From a virus, in the IMG/VR virus record IMGVR_UViG_3300007344_000304, positions 1 through 21,679 of that record: a stretch of 21,679 nucleotides of DNA, one strand, 5' to 3'. Every line of letters starts with the position of its first letter. Position 1 is the stretch's first letter. Of the stretch, positions 286 to 18,549 are shown one piece after another. Below the pieces are notes generated by a model, which made no database searches, was not told where the DNA came from, and was given only the letters and a program-made list of their open reading frames with translations. Both the position numbers and the translations under genes were made by a program.

Positions 286-777
286 GTCCGTATTATCGAG
301 TGTCCGCCGAATAGTGATAAGCCCGGCAGAGCAGTGCCTACGGGGCAGACTGTACAGAGTTTCTGTTATGAAGGCGCACCGCCACCTCCCGAAGACCCCT
401 GTTTAAATCCAGCATATGCAGCAGAGAATCCGATAGAGTGCGGTACAAAAACTGACCCGTGCTTGGATGCAGACTATGCAGCAGCAAACCCAGAGAAGTG
501 CGGGGTAGATACTGATCTTTGTGATAACCCAGTATATGCGTACTTTAATCCAGAAATTTGTGGTGTCGTACAAACCCCCAGTACGAGTTTGCCTAGTAGT
601 TCTCGTGGCGTTAGAGTAACAGGGCCAGAGCTAGCGCAAATTGACTATTTATACGATATAGGTGGCGAAAGTATTTTTAACCCTAATATGGCAAGCCGCC
701 CTTATGCAGCAAAAAGTGGCGGTATAATAGATACTTATAATGAGTTTGATGAACTTATAGATTTATTGAGAGGCTAA
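1..777 (+). CDS. Cysteine-repeat virion-type protein, 5'-truncated
   Basis: The reading frame is open from base 1 to the TAA at 775-777, so this is the 3' part (258 residues) of a gene that starts left of the window. The GTG at 334 is an internal codon, not a start. Residues 1-95 are five copies of a 20-residue unit of the type DPCLxPAYAAENPEICGT. After a 36-residue spacer rich in Pro and Gly there are three diverged copies (residues 135-188). Cysteines recur at spacings of 13 and 7 residues, so each unit brings two, which suggests disulfide-stabilised or metal-linked short repeats. The C-terminus carries a SGGIIDTYNEFDELIDLL segment resembling short GGI motifs in the genes that follow. No domain of known function is recognised. 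Position at the head of a virion block suggests a tail or surface protein; this is inference. The stop codon lies 1 nt before the next gene's ATG. Confidence 0.85.
   Translation, partial: LDPAYAAENPEICGTKTDPCLDPAYAAENPEICGTKTDPCLNPAYAAENPEICGTTTDPCLNPAYAAENPEICGTTTDPCLNPAYAAENPEICGTVRIIECPPNSDKPGRAVPTGQTVQSFCYEGAPPPPEDPCLNPAYAAENPIECGTKTDPCLDADYAAANPEKCGVDTDLCDNPVYAYFNPEICGVVQTPSTSLPSSSRGVRVTGPELAQIDYLYDIGGESIFNPNMASRPYAAKSGGIIDTYNEFDELIDLLRG
403..564 (+). repeat. Three diverged copies of the 60-bp/20-aa repeat
   Basis: Units start at 403, 463 and 523 and keep the 20-residue period, the Tyr-Ala core, the Asn-Pro pair and both cysteines. Their codons differ extensively from the array at 1-285. 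The third copy is the most diverged (DNPVYAYFNPEICG). They look like older copies from which the homogenised upstream array has expanded or diverged. Confidence 0.85.
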
Positions 778-778
778 G

Positions 779-1681
779 ATGGGCGAATTCTTTGATTGGG
801 TAGGTAACACAGTAGGTGCTGCGGTTGACGTAGTTACTGACTTTTTTACTACCGACGATGGGACTATAGACATGTCCAAAGTAGCCCCTGTACTGGGGTT
901 ATTTCTGGCTTCTCGTGCCAAAGACTCTAGTACTATTTCTGATTTTTTAGGGCTTGGTGGAGATAGCCAAGGCCCTCTTGGGTACATGGGTGGTATTCCT
1001 GATTACACAGCCTACCGTCAGCAAGTACCTATGTATACTCAAGAAGATGCCGCAGCATATGACCCAGACCGCCGTCCGGGCGGAGGTGGCCGTCGGTATT
1101 TTACGCAGACCCAGTATGTAGGTACGGGGGGCGATGCTGCTGCTAACCAAGCCGCTATAGACGCTGCACAAGCCGCTACAGACGCAGAAAAATGGAATTT
1201 AGCCACACAGAATCTTACTAATCTCAGTAGGCAAACACGTCCTGTTTCAACCAAATACGCTCCCACGGTAGCTTCTACAGGAATAATTCCTGCGCAACGT
1301 AGTTATATGGCTCCTGCTTCTGGTGCAGACGTTGTACAAACTAGATTAGACGAGTTAATAGAAGCCTCCAAACCCGGCGCTATTGGTATGATGGAAGGTG
1401 GACTAGCTTCTTTAGACGGCATGGGACAAGGCTACTACTTAGGCGGCCCAACAGATGGCATGGCAGATAGGATTCCTGCTACTATAGACGCCACGCAACC
1501 CGCTGCCCTCAGTGATGGCGAGTTCGTTATCCCTGCCGATGTAGTCAGCCATCTTGGTAATGGCAATTCCAATGCAGGTGCCGAGCAACTTTACTCTATG
1601 ATGGATAGAGTGAGACAGGCCAGAACTGGCCGTCAGACACAGGGCACCCAAATAAACCCAAACAAATTTATGCCAAGTTGA
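779..1681 (+). CDS. Phage virion-type protein with C-terminal DGEFVIPADVV module
   Basis: A 300-residue protein. The ATG at 779 follows an AGAGG ribosome-binding site 5 nt upstream, just after the previous stop. The N-terminus (about 1-55) is a mixed amphipathic/hydrophobic stretch containing VAPVLGLFLAS. The middle is low-complexity, rich in Ala, Gly and Gln (a GGGG tract near residue 102). The C-terminal third is the informative part: GMMEGGLASL near residue 203, then YYLGGPTDG, DRIPATI, and LSDGEFVIPADVVSHLG at about 245-262. The last is a module that recurs in many phage structural proteins, usually as 'D.IPA.LS.GEFV'. The family is known from phage virion gene blocks but its biochemical role is not established. 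Neighbours on both sides are structural-type genes, so a tail or virion-associated role is inferred. The protein ends with a polar tail. Confidence 0.8.
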   Translation: MGEFFDWVGNTVGAAVDVVTDFFTTDDGTIDMSKVAPVLGLFLASRAKDSSTISDFLGLGGDSQGPLGYMGGIPDYTAYRQQVPMYTQEDAAAYDPDRRPGGGGRRYFTQTQYVGTGGDAAANQAAIDAAQAATDAEKWNLATQNLTNLSRQTRPVSTKYAPTVASTGIIPAQRSYMAPASGADVVQTRLDELIEASKPGAIGMMEGGLASLDGMGQGYYLGGPTDGMADRIPATIDATQPAALSDGEFVIPADVVSHLGNGNSNAGAEQLYSMMDRVRQARTGRQTQGTQINPNKFMPS

Positions 1682-1689
1682 GGTGAATC

Positions 1690-2553
1690 ATGGGCGATGA
1701 TGATCTCGATCCAAACGCAATAGCGACCGATACGTCGGACGATTTATTTTCAAATACCACAAGAGCGGAGGAATCTTCGCTTTCTTCGTGGGCTGGCCCG
1801 TATGTCACGGAAATGCTTGGTCGTGGGCAGGCTCTTGCTGGTATGCCGTATACCGCATACCAAGGCCCCCTAACTGCTGGAGAATCTGGTCTACAAACGC
1901 AAGCCTACCAAGGTCTGGGTGCTTTAACTGCTCCGATTACACAGATGGGGGGCTATACACCTACTTCATTTACTGAGGCTGGTGTAGCGCAGCAGTACAT
2001 GTCTCCTTATCTGCAAATGTCCCTTGAGCCGCAGATCGCAGAGGCGCAACGTCAAGCTGAAATCGCCCGAACTAAACAAGCTAGTCGGCTAAGTAAAGCC
2101 GGAGCTTATGGTGGTGGCCGTCAAGCTATTATGGATTCTGAGTTAATCCGTAACACATTGCGTAACATAGCGGACATTACCGGTACTGGATACCAACAAG
2201 CCTTCACAGAAGCGCAGGGTCAGTTTAATACTGAAGAACAAGCACGTAGACAAGCTCAAGAAATGATGAATCAGTTTGGGTTTGACGTATTTGAAGCCCA
2301 ACGTCGTGCGGGTGCTGAACAACGGGGTATCGAAGGTGAGGGCATTGCCGCAGATATCGCTCAGTTTGAAGAAGAACGTGACTTCCCTTACAAACAAGTA
2401 CAGTACATGCAGTCATTGCTGCAAGGTATGCCAGTTGGCGTTGCCAGCTACGAGTACACGGAGCCTTCCGGCTTAAGTTCTTTACTAGCTGGTGCTCAAG
2501 GCGGCTCTGATATCTATACGTTGTTAAATAACATATTAAATCCTCCAGCATAG
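1690..2553 (+). CDS. Conserved phage virion-type protein, Ala/Gln-rich and helical
   Basis: 287 residues, starting at ATG 1690 behind a GAGGTG ribosome-binding site and 8 nt after the preceding stop. An acidic N-terminus leads into a segment with YMSPYLQMSLEPQI (about 103-116). A long helical, Gln/Arg/Ala-rich region follows, containing the recognisable AGAYGGGRQAIMDSE motif (about 137-151), and continues as predicted coiled-coil to about residue 235. The 'YMNPY...AGAFGGSRQ' pattern is familiar from proteins in marine and T7-like phage structural blocks, next to internal virion protein genes. I know no demonstrated function. No signal peptide or membrane segment is evident. The gene sits immediately before two large ejection-type proteins, so a role in the internal core or tail is a reasonable inference. 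Confidence 0.8.
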   Translation: MGDDDLDPNAIATDTSDDLFSNTTRAEESSLSSWAGPYVTEMLGRGQALAGMPYTAYQGPLTAGESGLQTQAYQGLGALTAPITQMGGYTPTSFTEAGVAQQYMSPYLQMSLEPQIAEAQRQAEIARTKQASRLSKAGAYGGGRQAIMDSELIRNTLRNIADITGTGYQQAFTEAQGQFNTEEQARRQAQEMMNQFGFDVFEAQRRAGAEQRGIEGEGIAADIAQFEEERDFPYKQVQYMQSLLQGMPVGVASYEYTEPSGLSSLLAGAQGGSDIYTLLNNILNPPA

Positions 2554-2564
2554 GAATATAAGTA

Positions 2565-5255
2565 ATGGCTATGCAGCAAACACCACAAGGTTTACAGGCT
2601 TTGATGCCCCAACAGCGTCCCGTACAGCAGCCTAGACCAGCTATGCCGAATGTAAATCCACAACGTATGCAAGCGGCGGTTGATGTCGTAGATAACGATT
2701 TACAAGATTTAGGGATAGACCCTAAAACTCGTGCTGCTATGAAAGCGCAGGAAGCCGTTGATTTACTGAAATCGGCTGACCAAGATTTGGCAAAAGCGCA
2801 AGGCCAACAAGTTCCTCAAATGCCAGTACTCGATCAGCGTAAACAACAAGCTGCTGAAGGTATCATTGGACTTATGCAACGGCTAATGCCCGGTGCTCAA
2901 GTAGCTGGTATGCAGCGTCGCCCACAACCACAACGTCGTGCTGCGCCAAACATGTTAGCCGGACTAGGTGGTATGCAGCGTCGCCCACAACCACAAGCTA
3001 TGCCTCAAGCTCAACCACAACAACGTCCGATGGCAGCAGGTATATCACAACTTTCTGCGCCAAATATGGCTCGTATGCCACAAATGGCCGCTCGTGGTGG
3101 AATTATTGGCTATGCCGAAGGCGGCCCTACAGAGGGCGAAACAGCTCAAATACAACAGCTTAACCCGTTCAATAAAATGATGAGCGAGGAGTATAACGAG
3201 CTATCTAGTGATCTAAATGTACAAAATTACATGTCGATAGAACAGCAAGTTGAGCGTTATAAAGCTGCTGGGGATATGGAAAGCGCAAGAATGGAAAGCG
3301 AAAACTTAAAGACCTTTCCGCCTGATACCTTTTTTAAAGTCCAACGACTCAAAACTATTATGGCCGGTGGTAATCCTGATGCCGAATTAGCCTATGGTGG
3401 CGAAGTAAAAAAGTACGCAGGGCCTGATGGAAGTTTTGTAGGGGCCAATAATCCATTCAACATACGCGACTACAATCAAAATTGGCAAGGACAAACAGGC
3501 GCTACTAGAGGTTTTGTCGATTTTGAAGACGTGACTTCAAGTGTAAGAGCAGCGGATAGACTACTTAGTAATTATCCAGAGCTTGGAGATGTAGCAACTT
3601 TACGTGAAACCGTTTCTAGGTACGCGCCCCCTAACGAAAACGACACTGATAACTACCTAAAGTTTGTTTCTGAACAAACAGGTATTCCTACGGATGCGCC
3701 TATTGATTTAACTGATCCTAGTGTTAGACGAAGAATTTTATCTGCTATAGCCAAAATGGAATCAGGCACTGATATTAGCCCAAATCAAATGTTGGCTATG
3801 TTAGAAGGACGAAATCCAGATAGAGAAACCGTGGCAGCACAAGATAGTAGCCCTTCAAACGATTACATAGATGATGAGTTAGAAGCAGAAATACAAGCTA
3901 TTCTTGCGGCTCGACCCGAGAGAGATTTACCTCCTCGTCCTACTTATATGAGTAGCGCAGAAAGGCGAGAGCAAAGAGGTGATAGGACGCCTATGCAGAT
4001 GTTTAGAGACTTTATGGCGTCTCAAGAAGAAAAAGCAGAAGAACGAGAACGCCGTCGTGACGAGTTTAATACAAAAATTGCGCTGGCTAACCGAGGACTT
4101 ACAAGAAACGAAATTGGGCAAGCTATGGGTAACGTGGAGCGCAGAAGAGAACAAGCTGCACAACCAGAAACTCCTCGTGGCGTACCGTTAGACTTGTCAA
4201 AACCTCCTAGCCGTACAGCTACTCGTGGTACTGACTTGGAAAATACTGGGATAGTGGCAAACTTGTTTACACCACAACAAGGTGCAGGACAACCCGCTCC
4301 TACTACACCTACAGACCCAGCGCAGGAAATAATAGGTAGAATGCGCACCGAAGCCGCTAATATTGGTAACTACCAACGCACACCAAGTGCTTTAGAAACC
4401 CAGCTAGAAGGAGTACTGGGTGAACAACTTGGTGCTATGGAAGGTGCTAGAGCCGCAGAAGAAACCGCAGCGCGTGCAGCACTTGGTATGTCTGATGTCG
4501 AGAAACAAGCTGTAGAAGACCTTATTAAAGCTGATGAAGACTACTACGGTAAGATTCTTAGTCCTGCCGAACGCGCCAGACGTAAAAATGAACTAATTAT
4601 GCAAGCGTATCTAAGTGGTAATAGTCTTGTAGATCAAGCCAGAAGAAGTGTTGGTTCTCAGTCTCAACTACGTAGACAGCAGCAACAGCAAGAACGCGAA
4701 GCCGCTAAAGTAAGACCACAAACTACTGTTGAACTTGAAAAAGCACAACGTAATATACGCGGACAAGTATATGAAGCTGGAAGAGGGGCAGAGCAAACCG
4801 CACGCACTACTCTGAATCAGGCTATACAGTCTGCGGGTAACTACGTAAACACCATAGCTAACCGTGATGCAGAGATGGCTATTCAACAGTCTCGCGCCAA
4901 TTTAGATGTATTGAAAGCTGAAATAGACTCAGTGCTTACAGCTAGACAGCTTGATGATGCTGCTGAAGGTCGCTTAATGACTCTATACGCTAACTTAGAT
5001 AGAAATATTATGACGTTAGACAATGTACTTGCCGATATGGAATCTGACCCGCTTGCTAAAGCTGACGATAAAACTAGAGTTCGTAACTACATCACAGAGT
5101 TAAGAGGTATAAAACAGACCACAATGAACGATATAGCCCGACAAATAGGTCTTCCAGCACAGCGAGTAGGTAGGATACTAGGCGCAGGTGCAGGAGAAGG
5201 CAGTACGGGCGATCCTGAAATAGATGCTCTGGTAGAGCAATATACAAATAGATAA
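2565..5255 (+). CDS. Large internal virion protein with phi6 P5-like muralytic domain
   Basis: 896 residues; ATG 2565 follows an AGGA motif 9 nt upstream. The N-terminal ~175 residues are Gln/Pro/Met-rich and contain a duplicated GMQRRPQPQ. At 176-188 is ARGGIIGYAEGGP, a short motif echoed elsewhere in this block. Residues ~285-415 look like the muralytic domain named after phage phi6 protein P5: NNPFNIR (295-301), WQGQTG, GFVDFED, RYAPPNENDTDNY, the DLTDPSVR helix, and a final KMESG with Glu399 in the place of the usual HENG-type Glu. This fold degrades peptidoglycan. The remaining ~480 residues are helical, charged and probably coiled-coil, with no recognised domain. The arrangement fits a virion-associated enzyme that opens the cell wall during DNA entry, as T7 gp16 does with a different lysozyme fold. 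It lies 11 nt before the giant protein gene. Confidence 0.82.
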   Translation: MAMQQTPQGLQALMPQQRPVQQPRPAMPNVNPQRMQAAVDVVDNDLQDLGIDPKTRAAMKAQEAVDLLKSADQDLAKAQGQQVPQMPVLDQRKQQAAEGIIGLMQRLMPGAQVAGMQRRPQPQRRAAPNMLAGLGGMQRRPQPQAMPQAQPQQRPMAAGISQLSAPNMARMPQMAARGGIIGYAEGGPTEGETAQIQQLNPFNKMMSEEYNELSSDLNVQNYMSIEQQVERYKAAGDMESARMESENLKTFPPDTFFKVQRLKTIMAGGNPDAELAYGGEVKKYAGPDGSFVGANNPFNIRDYNQNWQGQTGATRGFVDFEDVTSSVRAADRLLSNYPELGDVATLRETVSRYAPPNENDTDNYLKFVSEQTGIPTDAPIDLTDPSVRRRILSAIAKMESGTDISPNQMLAMLEGRNPDRETVAAQDSSPSNDYIDDELEAEIQAILAARPERDLPPRPTYMSSAERREQRGDRTPMQMFRDFMASQEEKAEERERRRDEFNTKIALANRGLTRNEIGQAMGNVERRREQAAQPETPRGVPLDLSKPPSRTATRGTDLENTGIVANLFTPQQGAGQPAPTTPTDPAQEIIGRMRTEAANIGNYQRTPSALETQLEGVLGEQLGAMEGARAAEETAARAALGMSDVEKQAVEDLIKADEDYYGKILSPAERARRKNELIMQAYLSGNSLVDQARRSVGSQSQLRRQQQQQEREAAKVRPQTTVELEKAQRNIRGQVYEAGRGAEQTARTTLNQAIQSAGNYVNTIANRDAEMAIQQSRANLDVLKAEIDSVLTARQLDDAAEGRLMTLYANLDRNIMTLDNVLADMESDPLAKADDKTRVRNYITELRGIKQTTMNDIARQIGLPAQRVGRILGAGAGEGSTGDPEIDALVEQYTNR
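2906..2996 (+). repeat. 28-bp direct repeat pair, 63-bp spacing
   Basis: A 28-bp sequence beginning tggtatgcagcgtcgccc occurs at 2906-2933 and again at 2969-2996. The spacing is 63 bp (21 codons), so both copies are in frame and encode GMQRRPQPQ. It lies in the Gln/Pro-rich N-terminal region of the 896-aa virion protein and looks like an internal duplication. Confidence 0.9.
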
Positions 5256-5266
5256 GGGCTGCAAGT

Positions 5267-8200
5267 ATGGCGACTCTTGAGGAACTCGGTAGTGCGTTAA
5301 AAAATGCGCACGCCGCTGGGGATGTAGAGGCAGCTAGAAAACTAGCTAACGCCATACAAACATACAGCCCACAGCCAGAGCCAACTGAAGACACTTCTCT
5401 GTTCGGCTACATACCTGAAACTGCCAAAGCTATTGCTGCCGGTGGTGCTGGGATGATTGAGTCTGCCCTGACCGGTGCGTCATTTATACTACCCGAAGAA
5501 GCCGAACAGGCTGCTCGCCGTAAGATTGCCGAAGTTGGCGGCGGGGTACAGGAGTTCCTTGCCCCTGATGAAGCCTACGAAGGTACCTATCTTGACCTGA
5601 TGCGTGGTGTCGGTTCGACACTACCGTTCTTAGCTGCTGCTCCGTTCGGTGCCCCCGGTATTATTGCTGGTGCCGCCGTAGGTGTGGGTGCTGGTGCAGG
5701 TGAAGCTGCGCAACGTGCAGAGGCTGCTGGGGCTACTGAGGAAGAGATCAGCACTGCTGCTGGCTACGGTATGATTCCGGGCGCGTTTGAGATGATAGGC
5801 CCTACGCGGATTATCAGGCGTGCGCAGAGAGCACTTGGCCCTAATACTAGCAATGTTGCCGATGCGTTAAATAACAGTTTCAAAGCCCGGCTTGGTAGGG
5901 TAAGCGAAGGCAAACTTGGTCGTATAACTAAAGCGGCTATGGATGAGGCAGCGCAAGAAGCCTCGGCTGAAGTATTACAGAATCTTATTTCACAGGGTGT
6001 CTACGATCCCGACACCGGAACCTTTGAGGGTGTAGGCGAGTCTGCCAAGATCGGTGGTGGTGTAGGTGCTATCCTTGCGTTGTTTACCGAAATGATTGTT
6101 CCGGGTAGGCAGCGTGGCCCAACCCCGCAAGAACCAGCCGCACCAGAAGAACCAGCACCAGAAGAACCCGCAGCACCAGAACCTATTCCACCAGAAGGTG
6201 ACCTACTGGGGCCAACAACAGTATCCGATATTTTAGATACAGATACTTTAGAAGAAATAGGTATCGATCTTGAAACAAATACTGCTGAAAAATTGTTTGG
6301 GTTAAATTGGGCTGATCCAGAAGAAAGAGCGGAAGCAGAACAAATATTAGAAGATTACATTGATCGTGGTTTAGTAAGAGCTTATAAACCTCAACTTGTT
6401 TCGCGCATAAGAGCTGTTTTAGATACCACCCCTCTTGTAAAACCGGAAGAACCGGAAGATGAAGTACGAAGAGCTACGGAAGTATCGCCTGACCAAATAG
6501 ATATAGAAGAACAGATAGCGGCTAGTGAGGCTGCGGAACGCGCCGAAGAGCAAGCTGTACAAGCTGAAGAGCGAGCTGCCAGAGAAGATGAGCGAGCGTT
6601 AGCTGAAGGTCGCGTAGCCGAGCGTCGCCAGCGAGAGTCCGTCGAGAAACGTAGACAAGTACTCCTACCTATTATAGAGCGTCAAGATATTGACGGCGTA
6701 GAAAACTTAAAGCGTGCATTTAGTGCGGAGTTGGGCAGACAAGGTTTTACAAATACTGAGCCTACCGAAGAAGAACTAACATTAATTAACCGTGCTGCCG
6801 ATGTGCGGGGGGCTTTTGCCACCCAAGAAGCCGAACAAGAAGCCGTAGAAGCCGCACGAGATGCCGCGCAGGCAGAAGGAACCGCAGAGTTAGAAGCACT
6901 CATACCAGAGCGTAGACAGCGGCCTATTCCTGTAGAGACCACTGAACAAGATGCACAGCGTGCCGAAGCTGCTCGACTTAATAGAGAGCGAATGGATCGC
7001 ACGGGTCGGGGTACTGAAGGTCAGCTTGAATTCCCAGCTATAGAGCGTGCTGAACGTGCCGCCGCCCGTGCCCCTCAGACTGAGGAAGTTGTAGAAGAAG
7101 CACCTAAAGTACGTAAAGCAGACAAGCGATTTTTTGATCGTCTTGGCGTTGCCCCTCAAGCTCCTGTACGTAAACAAGTTCGAGGTATGGACGTTACCAG
7201 CGAAGAGGTTCGTACTGCTTTGACCAACTTAGGCCGTAATCGCAACGTCAGTGAACAGACCAAGATCAATATAAACAACTTCCTACAAGAAACCCCAGAG
7301 GCTGTTCCCCAGCAAGACTTATTTGCCCCTACCCGTCCTCGTCCGACTGCGTTACAACAAGAGCAAGCTAGGATTCAAGCAGAGAAAGAAGCGGCAAAAG
7401 CGGCACCACCTACAGCTAGGAAAAGGAAAAGGAAAAAGACAACAAAAACTAAAAAAGTAGAGAAGCAGCAAGAAAGACAAAAACGTATAGGTAGAGCGCC
7501 TGCCCCCGAAGCATTTGCCCAGCAACCTCAACTGTTAGGCCCATTGTCCCCTACCGACAGAGACTTGTTCGCTACAGATGAAGCTCTGGCACGGTACGCA
7601 AAGGTTGCTAGAAATGCAAATAATCTTTTGGCTACGATTGCTTACGACTCTACAGTTGCCAGACACCCTGAAGTGGCTAAAGCAGAAGCTGATACACGTA
7701 AAGTAGCTCGTAAGGCAATACGAGCGATTAGGGATAAGGGTAGCCCAGAACTATTAGAAAACCTGAATCAGCATCTACGGTACCAAACCTTTTTAGAAGA
7801 CGCTGTAAACAGAAGAGATAGTAGGAACAAATCACTTGAAAGTCTAAGGGGCACCATAGCTGGCACTTTGTATACAGGAGAACAAGAGTCCCAAACAAAA
7901 GCGTGGAACCGAACAGGCTGGTGGAACAGTGCAGAAGCAAAGGCTCCGAGAGAAGTTATTCAAGTTGATGTAGATCAAGCCATCAAGGACGGTATTGTTG
8001 ATGGTAACGTCCAAGAAATAGTAGCTGAGTCAGAAGTAGAAAACGGCACAGTTGAAAACCCTGAAGGTTTAGAGGGACTTCAAAATACTAAAGACCTTCT
8101 AGTTAAGAACGCTGTTGCTGCTTCTATGCCGGAAGTGTCCGAGACAGTAAACGATTTGTTGTTGGACAACAATATAGGTGGCGCACTAGATCAGATAGCC

Positions 8201-11200
8201 AGAGATAACCCCAACACTGATATCGCACGCACTGCCCGTACACTTGCGGAAAGGTTGCGCGGTACGAGCACCGCAGTTGAGTTTGCCGAAGGTGTTGTGG
8301 ACAGAGATGGTAAACCAGCGCCCTCTGCGTACGATTTCCAGAACGATGTTATTCAGATTAATCTGGATATGCCGGTCAGTACACACGCTGTACTGCACGA
8401 ATCCGCACACGCAGCTACGCATTCAGTACTGTCTAACCCCAACCATCCGGTCACAATTAAGCTACAGAAACTGTACAGCAATCTGAAAGACAAACTACCC
8501 AACGCTTACGCGATGGCAGGTTTACGAGAGTTTGCGGCAGAGGTGTACAGTAATACAGAATTCAAAGCTCAACTGGCTGCTTACAAGCCCAGTGGTAAAA
8601 AGCGAAGTGCGTGGCGTGATTTCTTAGACGCAGTTGCTAGATTCTTAGGGTTTAACATAGACGCAACTAACGCCACAACTAAAGCCTTAGAATACATAAA
8701 CGTGATTATGGCAACTGAGCCTAACACCCGAGATGCTACCTCCGTAGTTGACAACCTGACTAACGGCGATGTAGACGAGGCGATGGTAGAACTTACCCGC
8801 GTAGGTCGCACCGGTCTGGACAAGAAAACTAAAGAGGAAGCCTACGAGTCGTTCTTGACAAACATAAATAACAAGAGCGCCAAGTTTATGATGAATGCTA
8901 TCAATGGTCTCGGTTTAGAAGCCATTGTAGATATGTCTAAAGGTAAACTCCCTACCGTCGAAGAAATGCAGGATATTCTGTACGACATAGACGGCACTCG
9001 TAATGAAGAAATGAAAACCTTCACTATGATACTAAAAGACATTTTAGGAGCTTTTAGTACCAAAGCGGGTGTGGGTGTAGACAGTGCTGCGTTAGAGAAG
9101 TTCAGTAGGCTGGTAAGTGAAAGCACTATAGACGGTATTGATGTTACCCGTCCCAGAAGCTACTACGCCAAGCACCGTGTCGAGTACGGTACTCAAGACC
9201 TTCAGAAGAAAGAACAGCTATTCGATACCAAAGAAAAAGCGGAAGAGTTCAAGAAGAAGCTGGAAGATGAACGCCGTGAAGCTAAGAAAGCCGGAAAGAC
9301 TACTACTATCGGTACCATCCGACTTACTGAAGCTACACAAGAGCGTACCGATAAGTATGACGAACTCAAAGCGTTAATGCTGGAACTTAATTCGTCTCAA
9401 CGTGCTGCGTACACCAAGATGCGCGACATGTACAAAAACATTAACGACAAGATTCTTGAAGCCGAAGATGCCAACATAAATCAATTGGAGTTAGACCCCA
9501 ACGTACAGAAAACTGTACGTGAAGTTCTGTTCCGTAAGCGGTTAGATGTCGGCGTCGTAGACCCATACTTCAGACTCTACCGTGAAGGCGAGTACTGGAT
9601 ACAGTATGAGTTTCAAAAGGCGGGAGTCGAAGGTACTGAATTTGGTTATGCTTCATTTGATAACCCCGGCGATAGGCAAGTGTTTGCGGATCGGTTGAGT
9701 AATGACCCTACTGTCATAAATATCAACCCAACACTTACTGCGGATCAAATGCGGTCTAGGATAATTAACGGTCAACTGCCAATATCTTTGGTCACCACGT
9801 TAAAAGCCGACTTAGAAGGTATATTCAAAGACCTAGAGCTTTCTAGTAAAGAAGATAAGGCAGCTATTGACCGTAAGAAAGGCGAGATACAGGACTTCCT
9901 TGCTGACATAGTACTTAAATCGCTTCCAGAGCAATCAATTGTACAGGCTCGCCAAGAACGTAGAGGCTTTGCCGGATTTGAAGCAGACCCAATTTATACG
10001 TTTGAAAAGTCTATGCCTGCGTTCATTAATAGTTACGCAAACATAAAGCACAAGGTCAAACTACAGAGTGCAGCTAATCGTGTTATGGAAGAAGGCCGAC
10101 AGGCTGAACTTGCTGGCGACACATTTATGAAAGAAGTCGCAGTAGCTGTAGCTGGAAGTAAAGCAGATACAGACCAACAGTTTGGCAAGCTACCAAGCTA
10201 TGCAGAGTTCAGTAAGAATCCTTACTTGAACGAACATGTACGACTAGCCCGATCACTGACCTTTATGTCTACTATCGGTTTGAGTGTCAGTTCTGTAGCT
10301 GTCAACGTATCAATTATTCCTGTGGTGCTTCAGTCTCGGCTTGCGGGTGAGTATGGTGGTTTCAAAGCTACTAAAGCTACGCTTGAAGCTATGAACTTTT
10401 ACGCAGGGACATGGGGCAAAGTAAAACGAGAGGGTCTGGGTGAGGTAACTGTAGATGCAAACGGAGACTTCGTAACTACCGAACAAGATCGGTATGACCA
10501 CGGTGGGTTTGCGATAACTAATGAATTTGAAGGTGAGAAGGCAGAGAGGTACAAAAACTTCGCTCCTTTGATAACCCGTATTAAAGAAATGGGTTTTGAT
10601 ACTCGCAGTATCGCAGCAGAAACATCTGATCCTGATAGTCCCAGTAGTCCGTTTGTGAATAAGCTAGCCTACGTATCCAGCTTTATGTTCCATCACAGTG
10701 AACGTGGTATTCGTCAAGTCAGTGCGATGAGTACCTACATACTTGAGATGGAAAAACTGACGGGTAAAAAGTTTAAAGATATTGATGCAGCAGATGTTGA
10801 CCAGTACGGAGAACAAGCCTCCAGAAAAGCTACTGATGTTGCCTTGTGGGTTAACGCTTCGGCATTGCTAACTACTGGCTCTAGGTTTGGTCAAACGAAT
10901 CTGGGTAGCTTGGTTATGCAATTTAAGCGTGTTCCCGGCCAGTTCTTATACACCCAGATACGTATGCTGGATGCTATATTTAAAGATATGACCGGAGCTG
11001 CCAGAACTGAAGCTGAAATTGAAGAAGCACGGATTCTAAGAAATACATTTATGTGGCTCACTGGTACGGGCGCTACACTGATAGGTGTTAAAGGTGTCCC
11101 ACTGTACGGTGTAGCAATGGCTATATGGAACATGTTCTTAGATGACGACGAAGATGATGCAAATACTATCGTTGCTAAAACGCTTGGGCCTGAATGGTAC

Positions 11201-11902
11201 TACGGTGCCATCGCAAATATGGGTGGTGTAGACCTGACTGATCGTATTAACTTGACCAACTTACTTATACGAGATCGTGGCAATTACGTTCCTTCAAGTG
11301 AGTTGGAGTACTGGCTAGAAGCAATCGGCGGCCCAACACTTGGTGTGGGCATGCGGTACATAGACGGTGCCACAGACTTGTTTGATGGTAACCCTCAGAA
11401 CATGAATCGTGCTTTTGAAAAAGTACTGCCCACCGCCATATCCAACGGACTAAAAGCCTACAGGTTCCGTACTGAAGGTTATGACACTACCCGTGGAGAC
11501 CCGATGATTAGTGGTGAAATACCTATGGGCGATGTAATAGCGCAGGGGCTTGGGTTTGCACCATTCAGTACGCGTCGAGCAAGAGACGCAGCCGCGCTTA
11601 ACAACAGACTAAATAGGGGAATACAAACTCGTAGGTCTAATCTTTTAAACGATTTTGCTTATGCCCATAAAATAGCGATGGAAACTGGGGACTATTCTCT
11701 GAGAGATGAAGTAGAGGAAGATATCCAAGAATTTAATGATGACCATCCAGAAAGACCTATAAGCGGTAAAAATTTAAGACAATCATTAGCTGCCAGAGCT
11801 AGAGGTACGGCAATTGCAGAACTCACTAGAGGGGCGATTGTAGATCGAAGGTTTATAGAGCAAGCTGAAGAGAACTATAGATTGCTTTACGGTGAGGAAT
11901 AA
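5267..11902 (+). CDS. Giant polyvalent-type ejection protein with HExxH peptidase motif
   Basis: 2211 residues. ATG 5267 has only a weak GGG ribosome-binding site. N-terminal ~35 residues form an Ala/Leu helix (LGSALKNAHAAGDVEAARKL). Gly/Ala hydrophobic stretches lie at ~111-155 and ~253-280. A Pro-Glu linker spans ~286-311, charged coiled-coil ~410-620, and a Lys/Arg cluster ~716-743. A zincin-type motif HESAH is at 1044-1048 with EFAAE at 1088-1092 as likely third-ligand helix. A segment DPYFRLYREGEYWI (~1433) is typical of large phage polyvalent proteins. Further membrane-like stretches are at ~1663-1695 and ~1927-1958. The C-terminal region from ~1800 (RGIRQVSAMSTYILEMEKL, FGQTNLGSLVMQFKR) resembles the LPD38-type domain. 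Phage polyvalent proteins are thought to be injected with the DNA; by position and size this is the gp16/ejection-protein equivalent. The peptidase activity is inferred from motif only. Confidence 0.85.
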   Translation: MATLEELGSALKNAHAAGDVEAARKLANAIQTYSPQPEPTEDTSLFGYIPETAKAIAAGGAGMIESALTGASFILPEEAEQAARRKIAEVGGGVQEFLAPDEAYEGTYLDLMRGVGSTLPFLAAAPFGAPGIIAGAAVGVGAGAGEAAQRAEAAGATEEEISTAAGYGMIPGAFEMIGPTRIIRRAQRALGPNTSNVADALNNSFKARLGRVSEGKLGRITKAAMDEAAQEASAEVLQNLISQGVYDPDTGTFEGVGESAKIGGGVGAILALFTEMIVPGRQRGPTPQEPAAPEEPAPEEPAAPEPIPPEGDLLGPTTVSDILDTDTLEEIGIDLETNTAEKLFGLNWADPEERAEAEQILEDYIDRGLVRAYKPQLVSRIRAVLDTTPLVKPEEPEDEVRRATEVSPDQIDIEEQIAASEAAERAEEQAVQAEERAAREDERALAEGRVAERRQRESVEKRRQVLLPIIERQDIDGVENLKRAFSAELGRQGFTNTEPTEEELTLINRAADVRGAFATQEAEQEAVEAARDAAQAEGTAELEALIPERRQRPIPVETTEQDAQRAEAARLNRERMDRTGRGTEGQLEFPAIERAERAAARAPQTEEVVEEAPKVRKADKRFFDRLGVAPQAPVRKQVRGMDVTSEEVRTALTNLGRNRNVSEQTKININNFLQETPEAVPQQDLFAPTRPRPTALQQEQARIQAEKEAAKAAPPTARKRKRKKTTKTKKVEKQQERQKRIGRAPAPEAFAQQPQLLGPLSPTDRDLFATDEALARYAKVARNANNLLATIAYDSTVARHPEVAKAEADTRKVARKAIRAIRDKGSPELLENLNQHLRYQTFLEDAVNRRDSRNKSLESLRGTIAGTLYTGEQESQTKAWNRTGWWNSAEAKAPREVIQVDVDQAIKDGIVDGNVQEIVAESEVENGTVENPEGLEGLQNTKDLLVKNAVAASMPEVSETVNDLLLDNNIGGALDQIARDNPNTDIARTARTLAERLRGTSTAVEFAEGVVDRDGKPAPSAYDFQNDVIQINLDMPVSTHAVLHESAHAATHSVLSNPNHPVTIKLQKLYSNLKDKLPNAYAMAGLREFAAEVYSNTEFKAQLAAYKPSGKKRSAWRDFLDAVARFLGFNIDATNATTKALEYINVIMATEPNTRDATSVVDNLTNGDVDEAMVELTRVGRTGLDKKTKEEAYESFLTNINNKSAKFMMNAINGLGLEAIVDMSKGKLPTVEEMQDILYDIDGTRNEEMKTFTMILKDILGAFSTKAGVGVDSAALEKFSRLVSESTIDGIDVTRPRSYYAKHRVEYGTQDLQKKEQLFDTKEKAEEFKKKLEDERREAKKAGKTTTIGTIRLTEATQERTDKYDELKALMLELNSSQRAAYTKMRDMYKNINDKILEAEDANINQLELDPNVQKTVREVLFRKRLDVGVVDPYFRLYREGEYWIQYEFQKAGVEGTEFGYASFDNPGDRQVFADRLSNDPTVININPTLTADQMRSRIINGQLPISLVTTLKADLEGIFKDLELSSKEDKAAIDRKKGEIQDFLADIVLKSLPEQSIVQARQERRGFAGFEADPIYTFEKSMPAFINSYANIKHKVKLQSAANRVMEEGRQAELAGDTFMKEVAVAVAGSKADTDQQFGKLPSYAEFSKNPYLNEHVRLARSLTFMSTIGLSVSSVAVNVSIIPVVLQSRLAGEYGGFKATKATLEAMNFYAGTWGKVKREGLGEVTVDANGDFVTTEQDRYDHGGFAITNEFEGEKAERYKNFAPLITRIKEMGFDTRSIAAETSDPDSPSSPFVNKLAYVSSFMFHHSERGIRQVSAMSTYILEMEKLTGKKFKDIDAADVDQYGEQASRKATDVALWVNASALLTTGSRFGQTNLGSLVMQFKRVPGQFLYTQIRMLDAIFKDMTGAARTEAEIEEARILRNTFMWLTGTGATLIGVKGVPLYGVAMAIWNMFLDDDEDDANTIVAKTLGPEWYYGAIANMGGVDLTDRINLTNLLIRDRGNYVPSSELEYWLEAIGGPTLGVGMRYIDGATDLFDGNPQNMNRAFEKVLPTAISNGLKAYRFRTEGYDTTRGDPMISGEIPMGDVIAQGLGFAPFSTRRARDAAALNNRLNRGIQTRRSNLLNDFAYAHKIAMETGDYSLRDEVEEDIQEFNDDHPERPISGKNLRQSLAARARGTAIAELTRGAIVDRRFIEQAEENYRLLYGEE
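6131..6196 (+). repeat. Pro/Glu/Ala low-complexity repeat (gaaccagc-type units)
   Basis: Imperfect 9-15 bp units built from gaa-cca-gca codons encode EPAAPEEPAPEEPAAPEP within the giant virion protein (about residues 289-306). This is an extended, flexible inter-domain linker separating the membrane-like N-terminal part from the charged region that follows. Confidence 0.75.
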
Positions 11903-11968: not shown

Positions 11969-12190
11969 TTACTTTAGCCGCCAAACCCGAACGCCATACT
12001 TACCATCCTCTACACGAACACGTTGCTCTATATCTTTTCTAGTTATCCGGGCAGCTCTGGTTAAATGTTCGATAGCTTTTGCAGTGTTTATGCAGGGTAT
12101 AAATACTGAAGCTCCGGGTTTAAACTTATCCCAATCGACAACGATACGTACGCCGTCAGGGGATATATCATTTAACATTACTCTTGTCAT
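11969..12190 (-). CDS. Small conserved phage protein, function unknown
   Basis: 73 residues from ATG 12190, which I prefer over the in-frame GTG at 12205 because GAGGAG (12195-12200) lies 4-6 nt ahead of it. The start overlaps the end of the primase-helicase gene by 23 nt. The protein has an N-terminal LNDISPDGVRIVVDWDKF segment, then a hydrophobic strand with GASVFIPCIN, a helix (AIEHLTRAARI), and a C-terminal strand ending GVRVWRLK. The DGV-VVDW-FIPCIN-GVR-WR pattern looks like a small conserved family from uncultured marine phages, but I know no function. It is the last gene of the leftward operon, 44 nt before the terminator hairpin. Compact alpha/beta fold without catalytic motif; a partner or accessory protein of replication is only a guess from context. 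Confidence 0.75.
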   Translation of the reverse strand: MTRVMLNDISPDGVRIVVDWDKFKPGASVFIPCINTAKAIEHLTRAARITRKDIEQRVRVEDGKYGVRVWRLK

Positions 12191-15032
12191 CTGGCTCCTC
12201 GTCACTCCAAGACAACTCGATCACTGCCTGATAAGGTAAGTTCAATTTAGTACCTTTACCTAGACGCATCTTAGTAGACTTACCTTTAAGCTGTAGTTTT
12301 ATCAATTCCCGTACCGCTTCGTAGTGGTGGCCTTTCTGCAAACACCACTCTTTGAACGGAGCGGGTCGTAGGTATAGTTTATTAATGTCGTACTCATGCC
12401 TCCCAACCCAACGGTATGAGGGCACAGCATCCGGCATGATAAGGTTTTCCATCTCAGGATCATTTACCCGCGCGTCCTGCGTGCTCTTTACTCGTAATAT
12501 GCCCCGTGGGTTATCGGCAATGTAATCGGCAATCAAACTATGTATATCAATAGTCATGCTCTGCATATTTTCTCTAGCCAACTTTAGTTTCTTAACAATC
12601 CAAGCGTAGAACGCATCCAAATCCCAATCTAGTAAGCCAATGCTCTTGGCGACCATAACCCCAGCATACGTACAAGCACACTCTGCAACCCAAAATCTAT
12701 GCTGAGAATCTAAATTTGCCGCTTTTATCATTGCGTCTCTTGTAGCTAAAACAAGTTTTTCTGTCGCCTTTAGGTTTTTAAGAACATGTTGTATGTATGG
12801 TTCGCCTGCATGCCCGTAATTACTAGCTAAGTCTTCCTGCAATGTGTTAGCTAACGCGGTATCTTCCTCTGAAAACAACTTCTTAGTGGCCGTAGCTTCC
12901 ATACTTCTACCCACTTCACCCTCAGAGTGCTCTCTGTGCGTAGCTAGAATATCGTGCAAACTAAGGTTGCCTGTCGTACCTATGATAAACGCCCAATCCA
13001 TACCTCTATATCGTTCGGAGTTTTGGCCTTGATTGTTCATCCTGTTTTTCTGCTCACCGTCAGTTGCGGCGTAACAAAACTCACTGGCGGCTTTACCGTC
13101 GTAGTTAGTAATCTCGTCTATGTAGAACGGTAAGTTCTTCCATATCTCTGCACGATTCCACGCAGAGTTTCCTGTATCCTTACCGCGTAGTACTAACTTC
13201 TTATGGTAGCCCCATACTGATGCCCCTCCATACATGCCTGTGGTTTTTCCGTAGCCTGACTCTTTACTCATTAGATGGTAGATAGCACCCGATATGTTAG
13301 GTATGAACGCCATAAGAGGAGCACCAAAAGATATGCCAAACATAAACTGATGCTCTTCAAAGTCGGGTCGGTTGTAGAACTCTGTTACTTTCTTCCAGCC
13401 ATCTAGTGTACCCTTCTTCTGAAACATAGGTAGGTACTGTGCCGTACGAGCACTTGGTGGGGCTACCTCAACTTTGTCTGCAAATATCTCTCGCTCACCT
13501 ACCACAAACGACTCCATACCCTCTGTCCAACCGAACTGTGTATGCACGTCGATCATGTCTTGAGTCTGTTTTAGTTGCTCAATCCACCTACCGATGTATG
13601 TCATAAGTGCGTCTGCCTGTCTTGTAAGCACAAATATATCGTTTAATCCCATAGCCTTACGAAACTCCTCTTTAGAAGTTATTTTGGTCATGGGTAAAAC
13701 AAATGTCTGTATGCCCTCTCTTTCCGTATGATGTTTGAATTCAAAGGATGGCCCTTCGATCGGGTCACGTAATCTCTTGGTGACGTACAAGTCTCTCTTG
13801 TATATTTCCTGCTGGTCTATGTTTCCGTGTTCGTCTTCCTTTTCCAAGTAAACACCACCGTTTGCCCCACGTTTGTATGGGTACGGATACGCCGGTATAG
13901 TAACTTTAGTAGGAGGGAGAGCTTCGACAGGAACTTCTTCCTCTCCCTCCATCATAACCTCCGGCTCGTCATAGACCGTAACTTCCACCTCTTGGGTTTC
14001 GGCCATGCGCACTTCCATGCACAGACTTATAGGAGACTTGATCTTGCCCTTGTGCGGACAGCCTTCACATCCTGACGGATTGTCGGATTCAAACGTAGAG
14101 CACAGGTGTGGGTATTCAATCGGTGCAGCTACTTTGTCGGTTTCCTCCGCACTGTAGCCTTCGTACTTACTGGAGATTAGATGGATTGATTGCGCTCCGT
14201 CTTCCTCACAGTGTTTAGCAATTGACAGTACGTGTAGCCAATCGGAATACGACAGATCATTAGGTTGCATAATTGCACGATTGACTTGTGCGCAACCTTT
14301 CCCTGACGCCGTAGCTATCAGTAGTTTAGAAAAACGTGTTGTGTATTTGCTCTGACCAACTGCGCGTGCCATGTCTTTGGCATCTTGGTCTGTGTACTCT
14401 CTCGCGCTAGTAACTGGTGTCACTTTTGCGGGGAGCTTTTCTGCAAACTCGTCTAGGTCAATGTAATCCTTGACCTTACCCACAACCTTAACGTCACGCG
14501 CTGGGTCATCCTTAAAGTTGTGTGTGTTTGGTACGCGCAGTATACGTGCTGCATCCGCAGTCACTACAGGATCAGCATCTAAACCGAATTCGGCGCACGC
14601 CGTCTTCAATCTTTCCGCTACAGGTAACCATTCCTGTCTGGAATACGGGCGTGACAAAACCCAGTAAACGTGAAGCCCACGTCCTGAGTTTACGATAGTA
14701 GTACAGGCAGGTAGGCCGTACTCATGTATAAAATTATGTAACGCAATTAGTGCATCGCGCTGTGTTTCGTAGGGTTTGCCGACTCCACAATCAACATCTA
14801 GGAACAGAGCTTTCATTTGTAAGACGTTTTCGGCCTTACGATTTACATCCTCCACATACGTGGCCGGAGTGTAATAAGCATCGTACCCTTCAGCATCAAA
14901 TTCATGCGCAGCATTAGCAGCCGCATCTACTGAACTATAAAATTTCTGTATTGTTTTGCCGTCTTTTATCCCTACTATGCAATAGTACCCTTCGTTTCCG
15001 GCAATGGTACTAAGAAACTCCTTAGTTTCCAT
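12168..15032 (-). CDS. AEP-type primase fused to DUF927-type helicase
   Basis: 954 residues; the ATG at 15032 follows a GGGA motif. N-terminal ~200 residues match an archaeo-eukaryotic primase (AEP) fold: FLDVD (Asp79, Asp81, metal ligands), NSGRGLHVYW with His121 (nucleotide contact), and DAARILRVPNTHNFK (~160-174). A short helical domain (~255-310) follows, with CSTFESDNPSGCEGCPHKG (Cys311, 322, 325) as a probable zinc-binding knuckle, then an acidic linker (~350-370). Residues ~390-760 are a DUF927-type helicase ATPase: SGYGKTT Walker A (592-598) and LPFYIDE Walker B (634-640), with a GTTGN sensor-like stretch (685-689). The protein would synthesise primers and unwind DNA at the phage fork, taking the role of T7 gp4 with unrelated domains. 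The gene follows the ssDNA-binding protein gene by 48 nt and overlaps the next small gene. Confidence 0.9.
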   Translation of the reverse strand: METKEFLSTIAGNEGYYCIVGIKDGKTIQKFYSSVDAAANAAHEFDAEGYDAYYTPATYVEDVNRKAENVLQMKALFLDVDCGVGKPYETQRDALIALHNFIHEYGLPACTTIVNSGRGLHVYWVLSRPYSRQEWLPVAERLKTACAEFGLDADPVVTADAARILRVPNTHNFKDDPARDVKVVGKVKDYIDLDEFAEKLPAKVTPVTSAREYTDQDAKDMARAVGQSKYTTRFSKLLIATASGKGCAQVNRAIMQPNDLSYSDWLHVLSIAKHCEEDGAQSIHLISSKYEGYSAEETDKVAAPIEYPHLCSTFESDNPSGCEGCPHKGKIKSPISLCMEVRMAETQEVEVTVYDEPEVMMEGEEEVPVEALPPTKVTIPAYPYPYKRGANGGVYLEKEDEHGNIDQQEIYKRDLYVTKRLRDPIEGPSFEFKHHTEREGIQTFVLPMTKITSKEEFRKAMGLNDIFVLTRQADALMTYIGRWIEQLKQTQDMIDVHTQFGWTEGMESFVVGEREIFADKVEVAPPSARTAQYLPMFQKKGTLDGWKKVTEFYNRPDFEEHQFMFGISFGAPLMAFIPNISGAIYHLMSKESGYGKTTGMYGGASVWGYHKKLVLRGKDTGNSAWNRAEIWKNLPFYIDEITNYDGKAASEFCYAATDGEQKNRMNNQGQNSERYRGMDWAFIIGTTGNLSLHDILATHREHSEGEVGRSMEATATKKLFSEEDTALANTLQEDLASNYGHAGEPYIQHVLKNLKATEKLVLATRDAMIKAANLDSQHRFWVAECACTYAGVMVAKSIGLLDWDLDAFYAWIVKKLKLARENMQSMTIDIHSLIADYIADNPRGILRVKSTQDARVNDPEMENLIMPDAVPSYRWVGRHEYDINKLYLRPAPFKEWCLQKGHHYEAVRELIKLQLKGKSTKMRLGKGTKLNLPYQAVIELSWSDEEPDDKSNVK

Positions 15033-15055
15033 AAGATTCCCACATCAGAGAAATA

Positions 15056-15073
15056 GGGGCACCGTAGTGCCCC
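15056..15073. terminator. 7-bp hairpin between ssDNA-binding protein and primase genes
   Basis: GGGGCAC (15056-15062) and GTGCCCC (15067-15073) pair perfectly around a 4-nt loop in the 48-nt gap between the two genes. On the plus strand it is followed by attgTTTTT (15074-15082). On the minus strand, the direction of the genes, it is followed by tatttctct, a poor U-tract. It could be a partial terminator or attenuator lowering primase expression relative to the upstream ssDNA-binding protein, an mRNA-stabilising 3' hairpin, or a stop for antisense transcription. Confidence 0.45.
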
Positions 15074-15080
15074 ATTGTTT

Positions 15081-15983
15081 TTAGTCATCAAATTCATCAA
15101 GCAAACTTGCAAGATCGACATCGGCTGGTGCTTCAACCTTTTTCTTTTTAGATACCTTGACCTTGGGTTCCTCAACTTCTTCTGCTACTGCCTCTACCGC
15201 TTCTACTTTTGGCATTTCTATCTTGGGTAGTGCGGGAGTGCTATCTTCTTTCGGTTTAACAGTAAGTGCAATAAGTTTCTCAGTGTCTTCCGACTGCTGC
15301 ACATCTATTGCAATTTTAAGTTCGTCTTGCTCCAACACACGTACTGGTTTGAAACACAGCTTAGGTGTAGATGAGTCTGTATCAAAACGAATTTCTGTAA
15401 GTAAGGAAGCCAACGGAGCTTTCTGGGAATCTAGGAAACGTGCATACGTTTGTAGCCCCATCTTCTGCTTGTTGTCACCAAACACACTAGTAGCTGGTAA
15501 CTGTAGCTGGTAAACCTCGTTCGACTTTATGTTGCCATCGGCATCCGCAAGCAGTACCGCAACACGTTGTGAGTACCGGCACGCACGGCCTTCACCCATA
15601 CCAGAACCTTTAATGTTTTGAGGACAATCAAAACATGTCTCTGACTGACGGTCTCCATCAGCTACTTCTTTAGAAGGACGGCCTGTCTGTGTATCAGCAG
15701 ACCAACACGTAGGAGGATTAGTAGCGCCAGCAGTATACTCACCAGCAAAATACATACGTGAGATTGGAGCTGTCTTTACCAGAACTACGTTTATAGCACG
15801 TTGCTCTAACTCCCCAACTTCTTGACCGCTAACTACCTTACGGAATACGCCGCCACGAATACTCAGTCTGTTAACACCTCCAACAGACCCTCCCCTACCA
15901 GCCGCATTTGTATCTGGCTGTAGCTGTCCGAGTAAACTTTTATACTCGTCAGGCATGTTTTCAAACATAGTTATATTACTCAT
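15081..15983 (-). CDS. Putative ssDNA-binding protein with Cys cluster and acidic tail
   Basis: 300 residues; ATG 15983 overlaps the upstream stop as ATGA, with GAGGAT 5 nt ahead. A Gly-rich N-terminal part (about 25-50) is followed by beta-rich sequence and a four-cysteine set, Cys93, Cys117, Cys120 and Cys135 (C-x23-C-x2-C-x14-C, within CFDCPQN and GRACRYSQR), which probably binds zinc. More beta-rich sequence runs to about 230. The last 70 residues are a low-complexity Lys/Glu/Ala/Val tail ending DLASLLDEFDD. An acidic, Phe-containing C-terminal tip is the hallmark of phage and bacterial ssDNA-binding proteins (T7 gp2.5, E. coli SSB), where it recruits polymerase and helicase. The adjacent primase-helicase and the polymerase in the same operon support this. 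The OB-fold itself is inferred, not demonstrated. Confidence 0.72.
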   Translation of the reverse strand: MSNITMFENMPDEYKSLLGQLQPDTNAAGRGGSVGGVNRLSIRGGVFRKVVSGQEVGELEQRAINVVLVKTAPISRMYFAGEYTAGATNPPTCWSADTQTGRPSKEVADGDRQSETCFDCPQNIKGSGMGEGRACRYSQRVAVLLADADGNIKSNEVYQLQLPATSVFGDNKQKMGLQTYARFLDSQKAPLASLLTEIRFDTDSSTPKLCFKPVRVLEQDELKIAIDVQQSEDTEKLIALTVKPKEDSTPALPKIEMPKVEAVEAVAEEVEEPKVKVSKKKKVEAPADVDLASLLDEFDD

Positions 15984-16228
15984 ACATCATCCTCATCGCT
16001 GAAATCCAGTTCAAGTTGAACGGGTTCGTTTTGGTCTGTATCGACCGGTTCTGGTACTTCCTGTTTCAAAGCTGCTACCACTTGCGGAATGTTAAATCGG
16101 TATGTGTTTGCCACCTTTATATAAGTGTCTTTAGGCACATACCCTTTAGCTACCCATTCGCGGACGGTAGGGACTTTGACATTCAAGTACTTAGCTAGTT
16201 CCTCAAACGAGACATAACTGTCCGTCAT
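15980..16228 (-). CDS. MerR/excisionase-type HTH DNA-binding protein
   Basis: 82 residues; ATG 16228 with GGAG 6 nt upstream, overlapping the preceding stop by 4 nt (ATGA). Residues 6-46 fit a winged helix-turn-helix of the MerR/excisionase (HTH_17) type: SFEELAKYLNVKVPTVREWV is helix-turn-recognition helix, then a KGYVP loop and a YRFNIPQVVAAL wing/helix. The remaining ~25 residues are an acidic tail ending LELDFSDEDDV. It may be a regulator of the operon, an excisionase-like architectural protein, or an origin-binding protein. No integrase is present in the window, so the excisionase reading is unsupported here. Translational coupling to the ssDNA-binding protein gene argues for a replication-linked job. 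Confidence 0.8.
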   Translation of the reverse strand: MTDSYVSFEELAKYLNVKVPTVREWVAKGYVPKDTYIKVANTYRFNIPQVVAALKQEVPEPVDTDQNEPVQLELDFSDEDDV

Positions 16229-16629
16229 TTCTTTCTCCGTACTGTCACAGTGTATTCGCTATCACAATTTAACCCCTGTGGGAGCTTTTCGGGGTTGTCC
16301 TCAAGGAATTGCTTCATATTCCCCTGATGGATTCTTTTCTCAAGCAGTTCTGGCACTTCATTTTCAAGGATAAATTTACCCATCGCTTCCCAATCAGAAG
16401 TCCAGTATTTAGATTTGGTAGACCGATAGAACGTACCGTTCTCTGTACGGACAGATTCGACACCGTTATCTTTACAGTGCTCCAAGAGTTTGATTTCTAT
16501 GGCTTTCATCTTCAGTACAAGCTCTTCTTCTTGTTCTTTTAGAGCGGCTTGTAGCTCTAACTTCTTGTCTCTTATCTTTATATAGACCGAGACCAACCGA
16601 TCTAAGTCGGGTTTCACCTCATTACTCAT
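16225..16629 (-). CDS. Conserved phage protein with N-terminal coiled coil, unknown function
   Basis: 134 residues from ATG 16629, preceded by GGAG (16638-16641) with an 8-nt gap. A GTG immediately upstream at 16632 (5-nt gap) is an alternative start. Residues ~8-52 form a Lys/Glu/Leu heptad-like coiled coil (LVSVYIKIRDKKLELQAAL). The second half holds ESVRTENGTFYRS, then KYWTSDWEAMGKFI (74-87), LEKRIHQGNMKQFLEDNP and a terminal EYTVTVRRKK strand. The pattern is familiar as a conserved family in replication clusters of marine phages, and it loosely recalls host-nuclease-inhibitor or Gp157-like coiled-coil proteins, but I would not assign a function. It is the first gene after a 72-nt gap below the helicase gene and heads the coupled set ending with the ssDNA-binding protein. 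Confidence 0.8.
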   Translation of the reverse strand: MSNEVKPDLDRLVSVYIKIRDKKLELQAALKEQEEELVLKMKAIEIKLLEHCKDNGVESVRTENGTFYRSTKSKYWTSDWEAMGKFILENEVPELLEKRIHQGNMKQFLEDNPEKLPQGLNCDSEYTVTVRRKK

Positions 16630-16700
16630 CACGACATCTCCACAAATTACAATAGTTTAGCTAAGTTCTCCTTGGTTTGGCGCAGTTTAGTCTAGTTTTT

Positions 16701-16729
16701 ATTATAGTTCAAGCACATTAGTGTATAAA
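16701..16729 (-). promoter_or_regulatory. Possible sigma70-type promoter within the operon
   Basis: A consensus TATAAT lies on the minus strand at 16706-16701, overlapping the helicase stop codon. A weak -35 candidate (TTATAC, 16729-16724) lies 17 bp upstream. The 72-nt gap to the coiled-coil protein start is the largest gap inside the leftward operon, a sensible place for an internal promoter. The -10 match is perfect but AT-rich stop regions produce such matches by chance. Confidence 0.3.
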
Positions 16730-18243: not shown

Positions 18244-18248
18244 TTAAG

Positions 18249-18536: not shown

Positions 18537-18549
18537 GACATCATTCTCC

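Follow-up and report, generated by a model that had tools for sequence, protein, structure and literature searches.

Large multidomain proteins encoded in phage late operons, in which a zincin adjoins LPD domains, have been described as polyvalent proteins (Iyer et al. 2017, PMC5512222), and both HExxH and HExxxH clades are known among their peptidases. A comparable HExxH domain and helical C-terminus occur in the N4 virion RNA polymerase (vRNAP, gp50), which is experimentally known to be ejected and which has a membrane N-terminal domain, a low-complexity linker, a large helical C-terminal part, and the last gene position of its operon (PMC12633501); the available sections of its description report no protease activity for the HExxH domain. 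Further comparators are T7 gp16, or internal virion protein D, and the PLxRFG/tail-700 proteins of Klebsiella phage SopranoGao (4369 aa), Pseudomonas phage Rollin (2184 aa), and Rhizobium phage RHph_TM27A (2307 aa).

The window, i.e., the whole stretch of 21,679 nucleotides analyzed here, covers part of a virus record. Late genes occupy its + strand (1-11902), and the − strand (12168-21679) carries a replication module that encodes a primase/helicase, a helicase, an exonuclease, a DNA polymerase, and an endonuclease. A 2211-aa ORF with an ATG start is present at 5267-11902 on the + strand, as the initial annotation had stated, and is the last gene of the rightward late operon before the convergent junction. 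Intact orthologues with 38-100% identity are found in several IMG/VR contigs, while no cultured phage near-identical to the window was found and a scan of genome contigs for the host identified nothing. The gene and its neighbours are:

779-1681, + strand, upstream neighbour of 300 aa, conserved in the same operon
1690-2553, + strand, upstream neighbour of 287 aa, whose homologue in contig L005 matches PHROG 4287 'DNA ejection protein'
2565-5255, + strand, upstream neighbour of 896 aa with a peptidoglycan-hydrolase domain (about residues 258-415) like that of T7 gp16/internal virion protein D
5267-11902, + strand, giant ORF of 2211 aa, with intact orthologues in L001/L004 (identical), L003 (93%), L005, and L006
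12168-15032, − strand, replication gene (primase/helicase), a convergent and conserved neighbour

The 896-aa product matches PHROG 873 (E=5.5e-29) and PHROG 7182, and tblastn leads to internal virion protein D/gp16. A small ORF within the replication module (16225-16632, − strand) matches a 'minor head protein' PHROG (E=1.5e-23), a label that seems misplaced there. In a related 64-kb phage (L214), a 1284-aa late protein encoded at 16097-19948, upstream of the giant gene, has a weak match to a virion RNA polymerase PHROG (E=2e-7).

We read the giant protein as an ejection protein because of its gp16-type neighbour, its DNA-ejection-family neighbour, and a C-terminal model that resembles internal virion protein D. 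With T7 gp16 it shares the operon position, a peptidoglycan-hydrolase domain in the operon, and a similar C-terminal model; in the window, however, that domain is encoded one gene earlier, and the giant protein has a zincin in addition. The layout of N4 vRNAP is likewise shared from the N-terminal domain to the last position in the operon, whereas its RNA polymerase payload is absent, as no T7-like RNA polymerase domain was matched in the window protein by PHROG or Pfam. An ejected protein with a polyvalent-type zincin and a probable membrane-active part is the best reading, in line with the initial annotation, and from the operon and relatives we infer that it would be carried in the virion and transferred into the host with the DNA. 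That the product is an ejection-slot PLxRFG polyvalent protein with a zincin is very probable. Our main reading goes further, to a modular, polyvalent ejection protein of giant size that occupies the T7 gp16/N4 vRNAP slot in a podovirus-like phage and acts by the course proposed below; we give this a probability of roughly 0.55.

The N-terminal module and the hydrophobic stretches of the protein are:

5267-6166, + strand, N-terminal module, residues 1-300, Gly/Ala-rich and hydrophobic, 56-92% identical to orthologues
5630-5686, + strand, hydrophobic stretch by hydropathy, residues 122-140
6044-6106, + strand, hydrophobic stretch by hydropathy, residues 260-280
10262-10330, + strand, hydrophobic stretch by hydropathy, residues 1666-1688, within the C-terminal module

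Hydrophobic stretches had been noted before and are present; their peaks are modest (mean Kyte-Doolittle 1.57-2.07), on the low side for genuine membrane-spanning helices, and could belong to amphipathic segments instead. Residues 1-300, a strongly conserved module, are the probable membrane-active part and may insert into the membrane.

The catalytic domain has the following elements:

8192-8806, + strand, zincin-like metallopeptidase domain, about residues 976-1180
8396-8410, + strand, HESAH, residues 1044-1048, predicted zinc-binding/catalytic motif
8528-8542, + strand, EFAAE, residues 1088-1092, candidate third zinc ligand (Glu1092 invariant; 1088 Glu or Asp)

Both motifs lie where the initial annotation placed them, with a spacing of 40 residues past the second His. 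Taken alone, HExxH has a coincidence of about 1% (57 of 5000 shuffles of the giant protein); its chance occurrence is ruled out because the motif is invariant in divergent homologues. In all 82 of these, H1044, E1045, H1048, F1089, E1092, N1096, and F1099 are invariant and residue 1088 is always Glu or Asp. As a guard against selection bias, we also counted relatives that had no match to the zincin search pattern and were found only via the C-terminal module, and HExxH was present in 37 of 37. Every one of 108 distinct complete relatives carries a zincin motif, HExxH in 105 and HExxxH in three.

An AlphaFold2 model of residues 960-1445, built with 77 sequences (pLDDT 87), has its elements in the order expected of the zincin fold, that is, in model numbering, a helix (25-38), a three-stranded sheet (44-48, 61-64, 69-73), and two helices (80-96, 127-136). 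Its best solved matches by VIA-align are all zincins, namely the lethal factor catalytic domain (Z 5.5), selecase (4.8), PPEP (4.5), and an ImmA-like regulator (4.3), with structural Z-scores that are middling throughout (maximum 5.5) and a best Foldseek E-value of 0.1. The zincin profile matches the giant protein of MinM2 (6.9e-8) and, in a single comparison, the HExxH domain of N4 vRNAP (E=1.6e-4). The invariant residues and the solved matches support well the polyvalent-type zincin proposed earlier. Glu1092 is plausibly the third zinc ligand; in the distant relative Axy21_040 this position aligns with Gly and the acidic residue at 1088 is kept. Axy21_040 of a T7-like Achromobacter phage (L008, 8768-12613), annotated as hypothetical, is encoded where the internal virion proteins lie and has the same zincin (HELAH). 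From gene order we take its position to be that of phiKMV gp37. In a close orthologue pair, amino-acid-changing codons number 1 of 205 in the zincin versus 108 of 664 in the linker, where QQDLF is kept. The zincin is probably an active peptidase, an assignment that we favour with some reserve.

C-terminal of the zincin, two regions are distinguished:

8807-9556, + strand, LPD39-like helical region, residues 1181-1430, assigned by relatives
9563-11821, + strand, tail-700/PLxRFG C-terminal module (NF032893), residues 1433-2185, mostly helical
9572-9589, + strand, RLYREG, residues 1436-1441, degenerate PLxRFG motif located by alignment and column conservation

LPD39 (PF18858) has no Pfam match in the window protein; it exceeds the cut-off in three relatives (L148, L058, L084) at the equivalent of residues 1181-1430, and the orthologue in L005 reaches 25.1 bits against a cut-off of 27. 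The C-terminal module matches NCBIfam NF032893 (tail-700/PLxRFG) with E=5.9e-63 and 213.4 bits against a cut-off of 100, residues 1433-2185 aligning to 2-670 of the 681 profile positions. At the position of the PLxRFG motif, the window protein has RLYREG and orthologues have PLYRDG and PLTRSG. An LPD38-like C-terminus, as first suggested, is not borne out: Pfam gives no LPD38 (PF18857) at E<=1 in the window protein, whereas the same model matches its cousins L199, L200, L193, and MinM2 at 1e-15 to 5e-35, and with these positive controls LPD38 was rejected in favour of tail-700/PLxRFG. Similarity of tail-700 to the C-terminal domain of N4 vRNAP or to the LPD38 region of MinM2 was not detected. 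The model of the module (pLDDT 84.8) has no convincing fold match in the PDB, which does not imply a new fold. The BFVD matches of this model include internal virion protein D from two Roseobacter phages, CRP-5 and CRP-4 (E 1e-6 and 2e-5), and a giant protein from Celeribacter phage P12053L (3e-7), likenesses for which sequence support is marginal; P12053L_42 has no HExxH. The PLxRFG/tail-700 proteins resemble the window protein in a zincin about 370-400 residues ahead of the PLxRFG-type motif and in the colinear C-terminal module, and Rollin and RHph_TM27A are cultured phages with the same architecture.

The initial annotation had called the function undescribed, which is too strong for the domain architecture, since a zincin-plus-LPD layout is that of polyvalent proteins (PMC5512222). 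The domain architecture is of a known kind; what is new is the replacement of one zincin by another and the clamp-like linker. The window protein differs from the polyvalent proteins in having no recognised second enzyme and in its clamp-like linker motifs, which the accessible part of that paper does not mention. It comprises one enzyme domain, the LPD39-like region, and tail-700; no enzyme was found in its linker. Relatives carry cargo: a linker pyrophosphatase in RHph_TM27A, an added methylase/helicase in Pavtok, and an ADP-ribosyltransferase (ART) in one of 66 linkers.

Comparison of relatives indicates that the catalytic and C-terminal modules are swapped wholesale. Three giant proteins (L197, 2595-8534; L202, 9848-15790; L198, 9251-15001) are near-identical but differ in the catalytic domain, after which near-identity returns abruptly. 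C-terminal of this domain, L198 is near-identical to L197 and L202, but its zincin reads HESLGH instead of HELGH, so that HExxxH replaces HExxH. Two further proteins (L199, 1892-8695; L200, 9836-16555) share the N-terminal module and the linker, with three Q-x-[DE]-[LM]-F motifs each, and continue with an HExxxH zincin, ART-PolyVal, and LPD38. Loss of the zincin in L198, L199, and L200 was considered and rejected, as a wider pattern revealed the HExxxH versions. In MinM2, the protein at the corresponding operon position ends in LPD38. Judging by these sequences, one and the same N-terminal chassis seems to accept either tail-700 or LPD38 as its C-terminal module, and the exchange of zincin for zincin between near-identical phages suggests that the peptidase is indispensable. 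In L131 the giant gene is broken where linker and zincin meet, giving overlapping ORFs at 4068-6686 (873 aa) and 6658-10905 (1416 aa), the first of which contains QLELDL and three copies of Q-x-[DE]-[LM]-F; a sequencing frameshift is a possible cause of this split.

The swap bears on two other accounts of the zincin. The giant protein could merely build a trans-envelope tunnel like T7 gp16, the zincin fold being kept as a structural or metal-binding scaffold. The shared operon slot and the gp16-like neighbours would agree with this, as would N4 vRNAP, which keeps HExxH and yet is packaged uncleaved (PMC5512222). However, neither the catalytic Glu1045 nor either His varies among the homologues, and a zincin of the other clade (HESLGH) substitutes between otherwise near-identical phages, which favours activity over mere structure; we regard a pure conduit as unlikely. 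In the other account, the zincin is delivered to the cytoplasm and cuts a host defence or regulatory protein; the initial annotation had allowed for a protease acting on host or virion proteins. Swapping and diversification of the catalytic domain between close relatives are what one expects of effectors, and polyvalent zincins have been proposed as possible effectors (PMC5512222). Yet a zincin is found in every complete relative whatever its other cargo, which better fits a common self-processing or assembly step, and a host-directed protease is improbable to a similar degree. Self-processing itself we hold only tentatively, as a possibility that falls somewhat short of even odds.

The region between the N-terminal module and the zincin contains:

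6167-8191, + strand, fast-evolving linker, residues 301-975, rich in A/E/K/R/P/Q, an enzyme cargo slot in some relatives
7022-7036, + strand, QLEFP, residues 586-590, second recurrent linker motif of the window subfamily
7310-7324, + strand, QQDLF, residues 682-686, beta-clamp-binding-like motif kept in L003, L006, and L022 while the flanks change

Between the window and its 93% orthologue, the linker holds 108 of 146 amino-acid-changing codons. QQDLF belongs to a pattern, Q-x-[DE]-[LM]-F, that has 64 copies in 39 of 66 diverse linkers against 0.8 expected from shuffles (about 80-fold enriched), with up to five copies per protein and none in 27 of the 66 relatives. This recurrence, the less expected feature of the protein, had escaped the initial annotation. 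The motif was first seen by eye and its first count is therefore post hoc; the background, flank, and tree tests came later. Linkers contain about 1.4 copies per 1000 aa, compared with 0.026 for 830 further ORFs from those contigs. In a positional scan the motif was sharp at every position: any other residue for the first letter gave at most 12 matches, and reversed or scrambled motifs were near chance. The signal is not one inherited copy because by their flanks the 64 copies sort into 40 unrelated groups and presence of the motif changes at least 12 times on the tree of the C-terminal module. Unbiased counting of four-letter patterns was swamped by the Ala/Glu composition. The cultured relatives examined have no Q-x-[DE]-[LM]-F. 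A second motif of the window subfamily reads GRGxEGQLE[FI]PxIxR, and QLE[FI]P occurs in 10 of 66 linkers (0.08 expected).

Bacterial sliding-clamp binders have the consensus QL(S/D)LF (PMC9690074), which QQDLF at residues 682-686 fits with Q for L at position 2 and within a flexible region. It is tempting to propose that the linker motif binds the host clamp DnaN, and we rate the chance of this a little under one half. The strict D/E at position 3 and the absence of the motif from 27 of 66 and from cultured relatives call for caution, as short motifs can have other partners. The copies might instead be sites at which the zincin cuts its own protein, or a signal for loading into the capsid, given that they lie N-terminal of the peptidase, within the linker, and number up to five per protein. 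But the 27 proteins without a motif have intact zincins, the three copies each in L199 and L200 accompany a zincin of a different clade (HESIGH), which makes a shared cleavage motif unlikely, and the motif coincides with a known host-binding consensus; we consider cleavage sites or a loading signal quite improbable. Clamp binding is the reading we retain. As far as we found, a clamp-like linker motif in injected polyvalent proteins is apparently new, with no earlier description in the literature searched.

In the course that we propose, the giant protein would be packaged in the particle, which the tail-700 module would drive, and on infection would leave it with the upstream ejection proteins. 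The Gly/Ala-rich N-terminal module would then lodge in the inner membrane, or close to it, and contribute to the DNA conduit, with tail-700 folding on the cytoplasmic side. The flexible linker might trail into the cytoplasm, where QQDLF could dock on the DnaN sliding clamp of the host, so that the entering phage DNA would meet the host replisome or host replication would be blocked. The zincin would most likely cut the polyprotein itself near the linker, while it is being delivered or afterwards, so that the parts separate; a host protein as target is less likely. Extended to the family, this would mean that a large environmental phage clade injects giant membrane-anchored proteins with one to five host sliding-clamp-binding motifs in their linkers, by which the arriving genome, or the gate through which it enters, is tied to the host replisome, or host replication is stalled, in the first moments of infection; this generalization is slightly more speculative than clamp binding itself, and we advance it with corresponding hesitation.

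If the motif does bind DnaN, phage DNA entry would be directly linked to the host replication machinery, for which the literature searched gave no precedent among injected proteins. The comparison also replaces the vague label of a giant phage protein by a modular chassis for delivery that can be tested, with a conserved membrane module, a variable linker/cargo slot, an obligatory zincin, and an exchangeable C-terminal module. The apparent indispensability of the peptidase, as suggested by the swap, makes the targets of such virion peptidases directly testable.
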